Of a stretch of 64,000 nucleotides of DNA, positions 516-58,658 are shown one piece after another. The stretch lies in contig NZ_FODR01000007.1 of assembly GCF_900110415.1 (NCBI RefSeq), positions 124,001-188,000 on the forward strand, given 5' to 3'. Below the pieces are notes generated by a model that saw nothing but the letters and a program-made list of their open reading frames with translations, did not search any database and was not told the DNA's origin. Made by a program: the position numbers and the translations under genes. How positions within the stretch are numbered: position 1 is the stretch's first letter; the number at the start of each line of letters is the position of its first letter. Source of the stretch: Mucilaginibacter sp. OK283 (GTDB lineage: Bacteria; Bacteroidota; Bacteroidia; Sphingobacteriales; Sphingobacteriaceae).

Positions 516-659
516 TTGGTTCATTGGTTCACTTGTTCATTAGTTCATTGGTCTTTTCTGGTGGGATTGCCAGATAGATAGGAGGTATTTAGCCAAGAAG
601 CTATTTGCCTGCGATGCCCGCGTTCCAATGAACCAATGAACCAATGAACCAATGAACTA
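516..659 (-). repeat. Tandem TTCATTGG repeat with inverted arm, abutting a stop codon
   Basis: Read on the minus strand, the TAG stop of the DUF2459 gene (659-657) is followed at once by four exact copies of TTCATTGG (656-625). After a spacer of about 70 bases the reverse complement follows in slightly degenerate form (553-516). The transcript could fold into a long hairpin just past the coding region, so it may work as a terminator or 3' stabiliser. It shares this architecture with the repeats at 12383, 16726, 48011, 53440 and 58593. Confidence 0.85.
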
Positions 660-16725: not shown

Positions 16726-16836
16726 TAGTATCAAGTAGTTAGTATCAAGTATCAAGATGCATTGCATATTTGATACTTGTTCTGTCTTTTAAATCGGGCA
16801 AAATACTTGCTACTTGATACTAACTACTTGATACTA
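16726..16836 (+). repeat. Long inverted repeat of TAGTATCAAG words between phoH and purC
   Basis: Arms 16726-16756 and 16806-16836 are reverse complements at 30 of 31 positions, around a 49-base spacer that holds a further TTTGATACTTG copy. The left arm starts 5 bases after the phoH stop and the right arm ends 5 bases before the purC ATG, so the element fills the whole gap. It could end phoH transcription or mask the purC start. A lone copy of one arm is at 479-509. Confidence 0.9.
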
Positions 16837-35943: not shown

Positions 35944-37626
35944 ATGTATTACATCATTTTTACGGTACTACTTTTGTCTATTGTGCTAACAATTTCATAC
36001 ATAGTATCTTATTTTGGGAGATTACGGGCTGAAGAAAAAAAACTGGAGAAAATCAAAAATAAATGGGCTAAACCGGTAAACTCAAAGCGCAATTTCGATT
36101 TGATAAAAATTTACCTGGATGCAGATATTACTAAAGGCAAAATAACAGCGGTAACCTCGGATGACCTTGACCTGAAAAATGTTTTTAACTATATAGACAG
36201 AACTAATTCAAAACCCGGAAAACAATTATTATATAAAAAACTGCATTTTCCGGAAACATCACCGGATAATTTATTGAAACTTGATGCTAAGGTAACGGCC
36301 CTGAACGCGGATGCACCTAATCGCGAATTTTTGGAACTCGAACTTTCAAAGCTCAACCATAGTAATGCCTATCAAATTCCCAACTTATTTTTAAAAACGC
36401 ATGCGCCACTATTTGCACCTGTAATGGCTTTGTATGTTAAAATAGTGCCGTATTTAATTTTAGCGGTAATTATTTCACTTATTGTTATACCTAACCCTGT
36501 TAGCTTGATTATATTGGGCGTTCTGTTGGGTTACAACACAATATTTCATTTTGCCAGCAAGGAAAAAGCAGCTGGATATTCTGACTCACTGCCCCAACTG
36601 TTAATAATGCATAAAGTAGCCGTTTGGTTAGTTAAATATGCCAATATCGGCGATACAGGTGACATCAAAAGGTGCCTCGTAAATCTCGCCGGCCTGAGAC
36701 GATCATTGACTATTGTGAATTTCGAAAGTGAGCTGGTGGTTGATTCGGACTCCCCTGGCTATGCGGTATTCCAGTTTTTTAAGGTGCTTTTTCTGCTCGA
36801 ACCCCATATCTACACCAATTCAATAAACCACATTGGCAAATTCCGCGACGATATTGAAAAGGTGTACAACTTTGTAGCCGAGGTAGATATGCTGATAGCC
36901 ATACAATCGGTAAGGGAAGGTTTGCCGTTTTATAGCAAGCCTGAATTTATCAGCGAGGATGCCAAAATGGAAATTACCGACCTGTTCCATCCTTTGATAG
37001 ATAATTGTGTGCCTAATTCATTGTATACCCGGGCAGATAGGGGAGCTTTGATAACCGGCTCAAACATGTCGGGGAAAACTACATTCATTAAGGCAATAGC
37101 AATCAATACTTTGTTGGCCCAAACTATATTTACCAGCTGCGCCAAGGCTTACAAGGCACCATTCCTGAAAATACAAACCAGTATCAAAATAACAGATAGT
37201 ATTGAAGAGCAACAAAGCTTTTTTCAGGCACAGGCGATGGCTATATTAAATATTGTTGATAGCAGCAGTGCTGCCGAAGAAATTAAAAGCCTGGTTATTA
37301 TAGATGAAATTTTCAGGGGAACAAATACAATTGAACGTATTGCGGCCGCAAAATCGGTATTATCATATATCACAGCCAATGATAATTTTGTTTTTGTATC
37401 TACCCATGACCTTGAACTGGCCGAATTACTTGATGAAGACTTTGCCATTTACTCGTTTGAAGATTCCAAATCGGGCAAAACGCTGGTATTTGATTACAAA
37501 TTAAAAGAGGGACTGCTTAAAAGCAAAAATGGTATTGCCATATTGGCCTCCATGGGCTACCCGGAATCTGTAATTGATGACGCTAATATAGTTAGCGAAC
37601 GCATGATGTTGAAGTATATGGAGTAG
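35944..37626 (+). CDS. MutS-family ATPase with N-terminal membrane segments
   Basis: 560 residues. An N-terminal transmembrane helix (about 1-22) and a hydrophobic hairpin in the middle (about 155-200) are followed by a MutS-type core and ABC-like ATPase. Seen: Walker A TGSNMSGKTTF near 372, Walker B SLVIIDEIFRGTNTIERIA near 448 and STHDLELAEL. It lacks the mismatch-binding domain I of canonical MutS, so it is a MutS-like protein of unknown role. A second copy of its last 25 codons lies 190 bases downstream at 37742. Confidence 0.88.
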   Translation: MYYIIFTVLLLSIVLTISYIVSYFGRLRAEEKKLEKIKNKWAKPVNSKRNFDLIKIYLDADITKGKITAVTSDDLDLKNVFNYIDRTNSKPGKQLLYKKLHFPETSPDNLLKLDAKVTALNADAPNREFLELELSKLNHSNAYQIPNLFLKTHAPLFAPVMALYVKIVPYLILAVIISLIVIPNPVSLIILGVLLGYNTIFHFASKEKAAGYSDSLPQLLIMHKVAVWLVKYANIGDTGDIKRCLVNLAGLRRSLTIVNFESELVVDSDSPGYAVFQFFKVLFLLEPHIYTNSINHIGKFRDDIEKVYNFVAEVDMLIAIQSVREGLPFYSKPEFISEDAKMEITDLFHPLIDNCVPNSLYTRADRGALITGSNMSGKTTFIKAIAINTLLAQTIFTSCAKAYKAPFLKIQTSIKITDSIEEQQSFFQAQAMAILNIVDSSSAAEEIKSLVIIDEIFRGTNTIERIAAAKSVLSYITANDNFVFVSTHDLELAELLDEDFAIYSFEDSKSGKTLVFDYKLKEGLLKSKNGIAILASMGYPESVIDDANIVSERMMLKYME

Positions 37627-37727
37627 GGGGGCTGTAGCATTAAGTGGCGTACCTACGGCACGCAAAGCCCTTCCTTTTGTTTTCTACCGATATTTGACTC
37701 CTACGGAGTCGTTTTGCATGGCTGATT
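37552..37727 (+). repeat. Tandem duplication, copy 1 (3' end of MutS-like gene plus REP)
   Basis: 176 bases: the last 25 codons of the MutS-like gene with its TAG, then the REP element 1. Copy 2 is at 37742-37917 with no gap or insertion between the aligned sequences, about 8% different overall. Confidence 0.9.
37632..37710 (+). repeat. REP-like palindromic element 1
   Basis: Two palindromes: GCGTACC/GGCACGC around TAC, and GACTCC TAC GGAGTC, joined by a pyrimidine-rich stretch with TTTTCTACCGATAT. Four copies occur before the transposase. Confidence 0.85.
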
Positions 37728-37741
37728 TTAAATTAACATCT

Positions 37742-37917
37742 ATGGGGTACCCGGAATCTGTAATTGAAGATGCTCACATCGTAAGCGAACGCATGACGTT
37801 GAAGTATATGGAGTAGGGAGCCTGTAGCATTAAGTGGCGTACCTACGGCACACAAAGCCCTTCCTTTTGTTTTCTACCGATATTTGACTCCTGTGGAGTC
37901 GTTTTGTATGGTTGATT
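37742..37917 (+). pseudogene. Tandem duplication, copy 2 (MutS-like gene remnant plus REP)
   Basis: Carries an intact stretch of 24 codons corresponding to the C-terminus of the MutS-like protein (MGYPESVIEDAHIVS and so on, with D to E, N to H and M to T changes), its TAG and a second REP. The remnant has no start signal and cannot be a gene. Eight of the 75 coding bases differ from copy 1. Confidence 0.85.
37822..37900 (+). repeat. REP-like palindromic element 2
   Basis: Same as element 1, with the second palindrome reading GACTCC TGT GGAGTC, so the stem is conserved and only the loop changed. Confidence 0.85.
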
Positions 37918-37968
37918 CAATTTTTAAAAATGATAGATTCGACTCTTGTATATATAAGTCAGATAAGT

Positions 37969-38036
37969 GACCCCGTCGGGGTCCGATATCGGTAGAAAAA
38001 AATAAAACGTAGGATGCGTGCCATAGGTACGCCACT
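37969..38036 (-). repeat. REP-like palindromic element 3, inverted
   Basis: Reverse orientation. The palindrome reads GACCCC GTC GGGGTC: both stem sides changed together from elements 1 and 2 (T to C and A to G), which supports a folded structure. The other palindrome reads GCGTGCC ATA GGTACGC. Confidence 0.85.
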
Positions 38037-38086
38037 CTTGCTTTCTTTTTTATGAAATTTTTTGTACTATTATAAATCAGATAAGT

Positions 38087-38156
38087 AACCCCATCGGTGT
38101 CTGATGTCGGTAGAAAATGGATAAACATAGGTTTACGTGCCGTAGGTACGCTACTT
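38087..38156 (-). repeat. REP-like palindromic element 4, inverted and partly decayed
   Basis: Same order as element 3. The first palindrome (AACCCCATCGGTGTC) has lost pairing, while CGTGCC GTA GGTACG is kept. It lies 22 bases before the transposase ATG. Confidence 0.75.
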
Positions 38157-38177
38157 ACAAACCAAAATCAACAAACA

Positions 38178-46639: not shown

Positions 46640-48016
46640 ATGCAAAAGAAAAGTAAGCTTACGCTATATATTTTTATAGCCCTTATCGCCGGTGTAATAG
46701 TAGGTTATATTTATAACACCAATGTAATCAATAAAATTAATGCCAATATAAGTACAGCCGAGGCTCATATTAAAGCCATCGATAAAAACTTATTAGCATC
46801 GGCAGATACCACTACAGAAGCTTTCAAATCCATAAAAAAACTGAGGCAGACGGAAGTAAAAGCTCAGCAGGAAAACAGCACCTTAAGGGAGGATAGACTG
46901 GAGGGCTTTAATATTTTAAGCAAGATTTTCCTGAATTTGATAAAGATGATTGTGGCGCCGCTGGTGTTTACAACGCTGGTGGTTGGCGTGGCAAAAGTAG
47001 GCGATATTAAAGCAGTAGGCAGGATAGGCGGTAAAACGATGCTTTGGTTCGTCAGTGCCACCTTAGTGTCGTTATTATTAGGAATGCTGTTGGTTAACTT
47101 ATTTGAACCAGGTAAAACCATGCACCTGCCGTTGCCAGACAGCCATTTAAGTACCGGTATCAAGAAATCGGCACTGTCGCTAACCGAATTTATCGGGCAT
47201 GTGTTCCCCTCAAGCTTTATCAAATCAATGGCCGATAACGAGATATTGCAGATTGTGGTGTTTTCGCTTTTTTTTGGCATAGCCACAGCGGCGGTTGGTG
47301 AGCAAGGTAAAATTGTCATTAAAGCCATGGATGCTATTGCACATGTGATATTAAAGATAACCGGCTATGTGATGAAACTGGCCCCTGTTGCCGTGTTTGG
47401 CGCTATAACAGCGGTAATTGCCCGGCAGGGTTTAGGTGTACTATCAACCTACGGTATATTTATCGGCGAATTCTACTTTTCGTTAGTGCTGCTTTGGCTC
47501 ATTATTATACTGGCCGGCTTTATTGTATTGCGCAAACCTGTTTTCAGATTAATAAGCAACATAAAAGATGCTATGCTGATCGCCTTCAGCACTTCAACCA
47601 GCGAAGCTGCTTACCCTAAAGTTCTGTTGGAATTGGAGCGTTTTGGCTGCAGTAACAAAATTGTGAGTTTCGTATTACCATTGGGATACTCATTTAATTT
47701 GGATGGCAGCATGATGTATATGACCTTTGCATCGTTGTTTTTGGCGCAGTCGTACGATATTCACTTATCGTTTGGGCACCAGCTGTCTATGCTGTTGGTG
47801 CTGATGCTTACAAGCAAGGGTGTAGCGGGCGTACCAAGGGCTTCATTAGTTGTTATTGCAGGAACACTATCAATGTTTAATATCCCAGAGGCGGGATTGT
47901 TCCTGTTGATAGGAATTGATCCGTTGCTGGATATGGGTAGATCGGCAACGAATGTTTTGGGCAATGCCATGGCTACTGCAGTTGTAAGCAAGTGGGAAGG
48001 GGAACTGGATAATTAG
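46640..48016 (+). CDS. Dicarboxylate/amino acid:cation symporter (DAACS family)
   Basis: 458 residues. Eight transmembrane helices with two re-entrant hairpins. The signature STSTSEAAYPKVLLELERFG near 316-335 matches the GltP/DctA family, and LPLGYSFNLDGSMMYMT near 347-363 is the second. It takes up glutamate, aspartate or C4-dicarboxylates with H+ or Na+. A charged, helical insert (about 30-80) between the first two helices is longer than in E. coli GltP. The stop TAG is the start of the 35-base left inverted repeat. Confidence 0.92.
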   Translation: MQKKSKLTLYIFIALIAGVIVGYIYNTNVINKINANISTAEAHIKAIDKNLLASADTTTEAFKSIKKLRQTEVKAQQENSTLREDRLEGFNILSKIFLNLIKMIVAPLVFTTLVVGVAKVGDIKAVGRIGGKTMLWFVSATLVSLLLGMLLVNLFEPGKTMHLPLPDSHLSTGIKKSALSLTEFIGHVFPSSFIKSMADNEILQIVVFSLFFGIATAAVGEQGKIVIKAMDAIAHVILKITGYVMKLAPVAVFGAITAVIARQGLGVLSTYGIFIGEFYFSLVLLWLIIILAGFIVLRKPVFRLISNIKDAMLIAFSTSTSEAAYPKVLLELERFGCSNKIVSFVLPLGYSFNLDGSMMYMTFASLFLAQSYDIHLSFGHQLSMLLVLMLTSKGVAGVPRASLVVIAGTLSMFNIPEAGLFLLIGIDPLLDMGRSATNVLGNAMATAVVSKWEGELDN

Positions 48017-48033
48017 TGAATTAGCGATTTAGT

Positions 48034-48061
48034 GAATTCGTGATTTTTTAATCGCTGATTC
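48034..48061 (+). terminator. Local hairpin inside the left inverted repeat
   Basis: GAATTCGTGATT and AATCGCTGATTC (9 of 12 pair) around TTTT. It competes with pairing to the far arm and may end the symporter transcript. Confidence 0.45.
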
Positions 48062-48103
48062 AAATAATTACTCTTATGGCCGATATCCTATATTTTATAA
48101 TTG

Positions 48104-48481
48104 ATGATAAATAGTGAAAAAATTGATTTTGCAGAGGCATTTAGAATTCGCACAAAAAAGTTTGTTGTAGATAATATTAGATTTTACAAAACTTTACCAA
48201 AAACAGAGGAAGCTAAGATAATTGGAAGGCAGTTACTCAGATCGTCTTCATCTGTAGGAGCGAATTATAGAGCTGCCTGTCGGGCAAGGTCGCAAGCCGA
48301 ATTTTATGCCAAGCTGTCGATAGTTGTTGAAGAAGTTGATGAATCGGCATTTTGGATGGAAGTACTAATTGAAGCTCAAATAGTTAATAAGTCGGATCTG
48401 ATATTATTATTAGACGAAGCCAATCAAATCCTTAAAATAGTATCTGCGTCAAGAAAAACAGTGTCTACCAATAAAAAATGA
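48104..48481 (+). CDS. Four-helix-bundle protein, 23S rRNA intervening-sequence type (TIGR02436)
   Basis: 125 residues. Seen: EAFRIRTKKFVVDNIRFYKTLPKTEEAKIIGRQLLRSSSSVGANYRAACRARSQAEFYAKLSIVVEEVDESAFW (about 9-82), matching the 23S rRNA IVS-encoded protein family, which forms a helical pentamer of basic character. The reaction, if any, is unknown. The ATG at 48104 is preceded by an in-frame TTG at 48101. The gene lies alone inside the inverted-repeat unit. Confidence 0.9.
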   Translation: MINSEKIDFAEAFRIRTKKFVVDNIRFYKTLPKTEEAKIIGRQLLRSSSSVGANYRAACRARSQAEFYAKLSIVVEEVDESAFWMEVLIEAQIVNKSDLILLLDEANQILKIVSASRKTVSTNKK

Positions 48482-48541
48482 CAACCAATTTTAAATTCAA
48501 TAATCACTAATTCACTAACTCGCTAACTCACTAATTAATAT

Positions 48542-49039
48542 ATGTCTTCAAAAACAAAAAAAATATTTCTCATCTCCACAATCGTTATTCCATTCCTTTT
48601 ATACTGTTTTTACTACTACGGTATGATGATTAAAAACGCGCCTTACCGGTTTGCTGATTTTCAGTCCATATCGATCCAGTATGGCGAGAAGGATTCATTG
48701 GTTAATAAATTTAACTCAAGCACCGGCGACTACCAATACCTTAACAAGCGCGATTCGCTGGTTAAGGTAAACGTTAAGCTTACTGAGAATGACCTGCTCT
48801 ATTTGCACCACAAGGCAGCCGGCCTGGGTTTCTGGGATTTTCCATCGAACGAGAGGGGAGATACTGTTAAAGAGAAACCGGTGCGTTATATCATCGAGTT
48901 TAAATATAAAACCAAAACCAAACGGGTTGTTTTTGATTCGAACTTTGCGGGCGACCCTAAATTGATAGATGCCAATAAACAGCTGATCAAAGAAATTGAT
49001 CAAAGTTTAACAACGGCGGAACGAAGACTGAAAAAATAA
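48542..49039 (+). CDS. Hypothetical protein with N-terminal membrane anchor
   Basis: 165 residues. A hydrophobic helix near residues 8-27 (FLISTIVIPFLLYCFYYYG) is followed by a soluble domain of mixed strand and helix (LVKVNVKLTENDLLYLHHKAAGLGFWDFPS near 73-102, VRYIIEFKYKTKTKRVVFDSN). No family is recognised. The start ATG is 5 bases from the right inverted repeat. The following gap to rplU has a strong promoter. Confidence 0.6.
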   Translation: MSSKTKKIFLISTIVIPFLLYCFYYYGMMIKNAPYRFADFQSISIQYGEKDSLVNKFNSSTGDYQYLNKRDSLVKVNVKLTENDLLYLHHKAAGLGFWDFPSNERGDTVKEKPVRYIIEFKYKTKTKRVVFDSNFAGDPKLIDANKQLIKEIDQSLTTAERRLKK

Positions 49040-53439: not shown

Positions 53440-53506
53440 GTTGATTGAGTTGGATTAAGTTGATTGAGTTACCAAAACCCAATCAACTTAATCCAACTCA
53501 ATCAAC
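53440..53506 (-). repeat. Long hairpin of GTTGATT/GTTGGATT words after rnr
   Basis: Arms 53440-53470 and 53476-53506 are reverse complements at 30 of 31 positions around a 5-base loop. Related words continue on both sides to the rnr stop (53523-53521) and toward the next ATG (53416). On the minus strand it follows rnr directly. Such a long, near-perfect helix should be an RNase III substrate. Confidence 0.9.
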
Positions 53507-58567: not shown

Positions 58568-58592
58568 AAAATTATTTCGCAGAAATAATTTT
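58568..58592 (-). terminator. AT-rich hairpin downstream of pbpC
   Basis: Perfect 11-base arms AAAATTATTTC and GAAATAATTTT around GCA. On the minus strand it follows the CACCACT array and is followed by TTTAAAG. Confidence 0.6.
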
Positions 58593-58658
58593 CACCACTC
58601 ACCACTCACCACTCACCACTCACCACTCACCACTCACCACTCACCACTCACCACTCAC
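58593..58658 (-). repeat. Tandem 7-mer array CACCACT (GTGAGTG on the sense strand), about nine copies
   Basis: About 66 bases of exact 7-base repeats that begin at the pbpC stop codon (the codons AGT AAG TAA lead into GTGAGTGGTGAGTGG). No reverse-complement arm is seen, unlike the other word repeats. The copy number is likely variable between strains. Confidence 0.9.

Follow-up and report, generated by a model that had tools for sequence, protein, structure and literature searches.

Why should a gene for a four-helix-bundle protein sit between two protein genes, at the centre of a long inverted repeat? Proteins of this family (S23, also annotated 23S rRNA IVP) are familiar from the intervening sequences (IVSs) of 23S rRNA, in Leptospira among others, and we know of no catalytic activity or function for them. 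The locus lies in a 64,000-nt stretch of Mucilaginibacter sp. OK283 DNA (the window). We consider it likely that the unit belongs to a family of small, IVS-like insertion elements located between protein genes, a reading in which the mechanism is inferred. The stem, its repeated words, their placement and sense orientation, the pairing of words with proteins, the gene-less (solo) derivatives and the polymorphism are all observed directly; among the points against the reading is that direct evidence is lacking for transposition, for RNA cleavage and for protein binding.

The unit between the symporter gene and its neighbour

The features of the locus, in the numbering of the window, are as follows.

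46640..48016, + strand: sodium:dicarboxylate symporter gene (PF00375), the upstream gene, with its stop codon within the left arm
48010..48052, + strand: left arm, an array of words of about 8 nt (TTAGTGAA/TTAGCGA), paired with the right arm when folded as RNA
48104..48481, + strand: four-helix-bundle (S23 / 23S rRNA IVP) gene, 125 amino acids from the ATG at 48104; a TTG at 48101 is also in frame
48495..48537, + strand: right arm, the same words inverted
48542..49039, + strand: downstream ORF of 165 amino acids, 5' of rplU-like and rpmA-like ORFs

A sequence-only reading of this DNA had claimed arms of 35 nt. The inverted repeat around the gene is confirmed and is longer than that: two 43-nt arms, 88% complementary and 442 nt apart, whose score of 33 is the highest of any inverted repeat in the window (pairs within 1.6 kb). 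As that reading held, the arms enclose one gene only (48101/48104-48481, + strand), which matches TIGR02436 (77.8 bits, cut-off 24) and PF05635 (54.8 bits, cut-off 33.8). Beyond these two the enclosed protein has no family matches, and it is not an HuH tyrosine (Y1) transposase; compared with PDB 2RLD, it gives an E value of 2.4e-15. The placement between the symporter stop and the next ATG is equally as described, with the stop codon (TAG, 48014-48016) inside the left arm and the right arm ending 4 nt short of the ATG at 48542, the start of an ORF without a Pfam or NCBIfam match. When the unit is folded as RNA the arms pair over their full length (z = -3.55, with 0 of 100 shuffles as low), and an Rfam scan of the window returns nothing at the gathering threshold and only sub-threshold noise at the unit. 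Two other repeats of the window may be recorded here: a perfect 7-bp tandem repeat (TCACCAC x 9.6) at 58592-58658, and a 190-bp tandem repeat (1.9 copies, 91%) at 37552-38157 with several overlapping inverted repeats.

The proposed likeness to 23S rRNA IVSs holds in plan and fails in location. The Coxiella IVS is 428-444 nt long, with a terminal stem of about 28 bp and an S23 ORF in the loop; it is cut by RNase III, its ORF is preceded by three tandem copies of the heptamer GACAGAT, and its S23 protein has been suggested not to be made in vivo (PMC4990558). The units studied here share its size, its terminal stem, its ORF in the loop and the heptamers before the ORF, but they lie between protein genes, have word arms on both sides, occur in many copies per genome and are accompanied by solo hairpins. 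No unit lies in rRNA at the loci tested, and conserved 23S motifs are absent around the short loci save for an isolated 11-mer in L041. Because the units match the plan of an IVS and yet lie outside rRNA, we call them IVS-like rather than rRNA IVSs.

Word arms, placement and protein lineage

The genome from which the window comes (the own genome) contains eight TIGR02436 genes, every one of them flanked by inverted arrays of a degenerate short word. The words differ gene by gene (AGTATCA, GTCCATA, GTTCATG, AAGTCTT, TGCAGAT, ATTTGAA, GTCATTA and, in the window, TTAGTGAA). Shuffling the flanks of these eight copies gives maximum arm scores of 15-19; the arms of two units (L002 and L007) are visible by eye and fall below this control. 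That family members should have flanking inverted repeats is borne out more widely: an arm-pairing score of at least 18 is reached at 85% of 60 genus loci (median 24) against 1.6% of 1028 control genes from a 1.26-Mb portion of the own genome (median 11), and clear arms flank 115 of 170 loci sampled across Bacteroidota. In a phylum sample the score is at least 18 at 14 of 30 loci, and among 78 named Bacteroidota loci (Pedobacter, Flavobacterium, Chryseobacterium, Algoriphagus, Hymenobacter, Pontibacter, Kordia and others) it is at least 18 at 48 (62%) and at least 16 at 79%, with a period of 7 nearly throughout. S23/IVP genes occur in 114 of 148 sampled Bacteroidota genomes. Within the genus, protein L042 of genome G006 is identical to L223, which comes from a Mucilaginibacter record.

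The anatomy of the family can be read from the 115 clear-armed units (230 arms). A period of 7 fits best in 183 arms and a period of 8, which is also that of the window unit, in 33; the median arm is 36 nt, the median unit spans 486 nt, and gene-bearing copies are about 430-700 bp long. Both neighbours are co-directional with the enclosed gene in 99 of 106 cases, where gene order alone predicts about 36% (72% of neighbour pairs run the same way, and in half of these the direction is the right one). Placement at stop codons, which had been suspected from the window, extends across the family and to start codons as well: the outer arm edge lies at a median of -1 nt from the upstream stop (quartiles -4 and +3) and +6 nt from the downstream start (quartiles 1 and 11). 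Either targeting or strong selection against every other position may account for this fit from stop to start.

If the arms differ from gene to gene, what determines their words? Protein similarity and word similarity are correlated (Mantel r 0.341, against a maximum of 0.165 in 2000 permutations) even with unit pairs that have related flanking genes, and so share a site, left out. Words are practically never shared at protein similarity below 0.4 and are shared by 35% of pairs at 0.6-0.8, and on the protein tree ten word classes need 16 changes compared with 39.0 when shuffled. Since the word classes were set by hand-made patterns, the Mantel test is the cleaner of the two. On these sequence comparisons we conclude that the words go with the protein rather than with the site: every protein lineage has a word of its own, which recurs in its copies even where the sites are unrelated. 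Two solved relatives, 2RLD and 2GSC, have five chains each, and the Xanthomonas protein is described in the literature, as quoted in PMC4990558, as a homopentameric ring. It is speculation that one word serves each subunit (5 x 7 = 35 nt, near the median arm).

Strict compensatory change at the window site is rejected, since a left arm finds its best partner in the right arm of the same unit in only 4 of 10 cases. Within one word class own-arm pairing exceeds cross pairing only modestly (24.9 vs 21.8). A change from TTAGTGA to TTATTGA is shared by both arms in four units (L016, L027, L033 and L037). Because two-sided word changes of this sort fit conversion or slippage as well as selection, we do not claim covariation.

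A second protein family, GxxExxY (TIGR04256), occupies a similar frame, with arm scores of at least 18 at 23 of 27 genus loci. Its words are different and longer (among them TTAACCACAGAGTTAACAGAG, TTGTCTGAACCGGAATTAAACGAATT, TTGTCTGAACCGGAATT and ACCGCTGATT), and it has solo hairpins of its own. The loci concerned are L323-L352; in the own genome they are found at C18:578162-578857 (L342) and C14:98915-99259.

Gene-less hairpins and changing sites

Word repeats had also been noticed at other gene ends of the window, and we find them there as three hairpins without a gene, none assigned a strand.

519..657: solo hairpin of GTTCATTGGTTCA words, gene-less, from the inverted-repeat scan
16726..16836: solo hairpin with the AGTATCAAGTAGTTAGTATCAAGTATCAAG arm of the own-genome gene-bearing unit L001 (match score 30)
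53440..53506: solo hairpin of GTTGATTGAGTTGGATT words, the class of the gene-bearing unit L089 of the same species, by word match

These three belong to 43 gene-less word hairpins, roughly 50-220 bp long, in 1.26 Mb of the own genome. The supposed link between IVS proteins and such repeats is found in the words themselves, which hairpins elsewhere share with gene-bearing units: 63% of the 43 match arms of gene-bearing units resident in the species (4% in a recoded control), and 86% match some unit of the genus (control 27%). Hairpin density is 3.4 per 100 kb in the own genome and 3.5 in a second genome of the species, compared with 0.25 in G036, a genus member without a detected TIGR02436 gene and the only such genome sampled; within the own genome the density is uneven (0.7-5.4 per 100 kb). 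Solo hairpins lie close to stop codons (median 3.5 nt) and show no clear enrichment in co-directional gaps (44 of 56 vs a baseline of about 72%). Further hairpin families are abundant in the own genome, with CCGTCATTGCGAGGTACGAAGCAATCCC, CTGTCATCCTGAGGAACGAAGGATCT and CCCCCTAACCCCCTAAAGGGGG as their sequences (e.g. C14:590689, C14:656754 and C18:558943), and one hairpin of the GC-rich type fills a site that is occupied by a four-helix-bundle unit in the sister strain.

Comparing the window site across relatives, we find that synteny is not fixed. In 29 genus loci the gene is present in 11 (orthologous, 76-100% identity), absent from 17 and decayed in one (L022), where arms and a C-terminal remnant survive, and gaps that lack the gene often keep short runs of right-arm-like words. 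A host gene in fixed synteny is rejected by this patchy presence. Six loci (L017, L019, L020, L021, L023 and L024) have another insert of about 350-450 bp (gccgcgttagggattgcagtg...gcgaggacttgtaacg) in the gap between the symporter and the next gene, conserved among most carriers and without a significant Rfam match. The orthologues have a median dN of 0.12 with dS saturated, so that the ratio of about 0.07 is only rough; the protein is under purifying selection.

The suggestion of a mobile element is supported, but the window copy itself is mostly inherited and sometimes lost: by its pattern of presence, absence and decay, the copy is old. As the unit is vertical across a clade, many other copies may be old and static as well. 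Elsewhere synteny varies within the species, with five further sites differing between two of its genomes. The own genome has a unit between purK-like and purE-like genes whose right arm provides the downstream start codon; the same-species genome G020 has other DNA in its place, and four units of G020 have no counterpart in the own genome. Because such gaps are often filled by other words, another stem or another gene, clean insertion cannot be claimed for every case, and some of these rewritten gaps could be recombination of whole intergenic regions. At two shared sites (own C18:582366-582563 and C18:675573-675730, compared with G020) solo hairpins keep their word class while their loops are replaced, which suggests exchange between hairpins of one class.

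Plasmids of cyanobacteria provide cleaner cases of an empty site. In a plasmid of Picosynechococcus PCC 7003, cmr2 and cmr3 flank the gene and leave a gap of about 36 nt on each side, whereas in the PCC 7002 counterpart cmr2 and cmr3 are 12 nt apart and the flanks are 90% identical, so that an empty site is set against a 428-nt unit. The last cmr2 codons and the entire gap differ between the two, as if the PCC 7003 unit had taken the place of everything between stop and start. At the units we see no target-site duplication; the gap is replaced instead, and this argues for something other than a standard transposase. At one Nostoc site three states are found: empty in C057, a gene unit in N. 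edaphicum and C052 (word GGGAACA), and a solo hairpin in ATCC 53789 (GGGAACT/GGGAACA). The arms of cyanobacterial S23 genes consist of GGGAACA-, TTAGCTT- and GTGACAG-type heptamers, with Nostoc HK-01, one of ten cyanobacterial loci, lacking clear arms.

Mechanism, rivals and relatives

How might such a unit work? We infer that the arms pair in the polycistronic mRNA and would thereby separate the flanking reading frames, and that the paired arms would offer double-stranded RNA for processing by RNase III, as in 23S rRNA IVSs. The protein would bind its own words, in single-stranded or stem form and perhaps with one word per subunit, and would drive or license a process that copies word hairpins, some carrying the gene and some not, into the gaps between cistrons. 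On this view gene-less hairpins are non-autonomous derivatives, standing to gene-bearing units as REPINs stand to RAYTs. The interpretation offered by the sequence-only reading is supported overall, although RNase III cleavage, RNA excision and transposition in the laboratory are not shown.

The main rival is that the protein is an RNA-binding regulator of the host, with the gene-end hairpins as its regulon (serving mRNA 3' end protection, attenuation or translational control), the arms autoregulatory and the units domesticated rather than mobile. Arms that read in sense and sit tight against stop and start codons would suit a regulator, as would the strong constraint on the protein, the long retention of the window unit in a clade and the translational role that MacGregor 2015 (PMC4679880) proposed for heptamer arrays 5' of start codons. 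A regulon is nevertheless hard to reconcile with presence that is sporadic and polymorphic within one species, with neighbour genes that vary from unit to unit, with many unrelated word classes per genome, and with sites taken over by other inserts or empty in closely related plasmids, and we regard this explanation as unlikely. We find it rather less likely still that the arms are the terminal inverted repeats of a MITE-like DNA element, moved in trans by another transposase with the gene as a passenger. Gene-less hairpins do far outnumber gene-bearing units, and GxxExxY genes occupy similar frames with other words; yet we noticed no transposase among the word-armed genes of 1.26 Mb, the words track protein lineage, and neither the sense orientation (99 of 106) nor the stop-to-start edges would be expected of a blind DNA transposon. 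That an ordinary gene merely happens to be flanked by intrinsic terminators or by chance repeats we can hardly credit: intergenic stem-loops are common and the own genome has many other hairpin families, but a chance or terminator stem is contradicted by the size of the effect relative to control genes (85% vs 1.6%) and shuffles, and has no place for the gene in the loop, the heptad periodicity or the pairing of protein with word.

An element family with a gene of its own resembles several known systems without coinciding with any of them. Like RAYTs and REPINs, it combines a gene copy flanked by inverted repeats with many gene-less hairpins of lineage-specific sequence; unlike them, it encodes a four-helix bundle where RAYTs are HuH tyrosine transposases, its arms are arrays of 7-8-nt words, and its copies read in sense from stop to start codon. 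Avd of the diversity-generating retroelements has the same four-helix-bundle pentamer fold; in an unsystematic look at the listed ORFs from 44 to 53 kb, neither a reverse transcriptase nor template/variable repeats were noticed. Intergenic arrays of 7-nt words, often beside start codons, are shared with the cyanobacterial STRR and the TAACTGA heptamer repeats. Such heptamer repeats have been known for decades, to our knowledge without a mechanism. In Beggiatoaceae, Cyanobacteria and Bacteroidetes, MacGregor 2015 described TAACTGA repeats that precede start codons, without finding a mechanism for them, and the text mentions neither S23 nor four-helix-bundle genes (PMC4679880). We found no literature that links S23 or four-helix-bundle proteins to word repeats, in a search that mostly did not cover subscription papers, and a word-armed S23 element family is apparently undescribed.

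A wider proposition, which we put forward tentatively and to which we do not quite commit ourselves, is that bacteria harbour a new class of mobile elements, which set stems from stop to start in operons and have S23/IVP proteins (and GxxExxY proteins with other words) as their agents. Each protein would read its own 7-8-nt word, one per subunit of the ring; the heptamer repeats of Bacteroidota and Cyanobacteria would be non-autonomous offspring, and 23S rRNA IVSs would be copies that landed in rRNA. Such a family would give an origin to the heptamer repeats scattered through bacterial genomes and expose a common source of strain-to-strain change between cistrons. By tying S23 proteins to heptamer repeats, and by naming a word specific to the protein and an exact site of insertion, it makes both puzzles biochemically testable.

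Genes of this kind could be mistaken for CRISPR genes. The 23S rRNA IVP appears among CRISPR-associated genes in a published survey (PMC10910872), and this association may be partly due to insertions such as those described here, which offer a possible reason for '23S rRNA IVP' genes in cas operons. In two cyanobacteria a four-helix-bundle gene lies between cas6 and cas4; together with the arrangement cmr2/gene/cmr3, the cas-operon loci are L378, L379 and L382.
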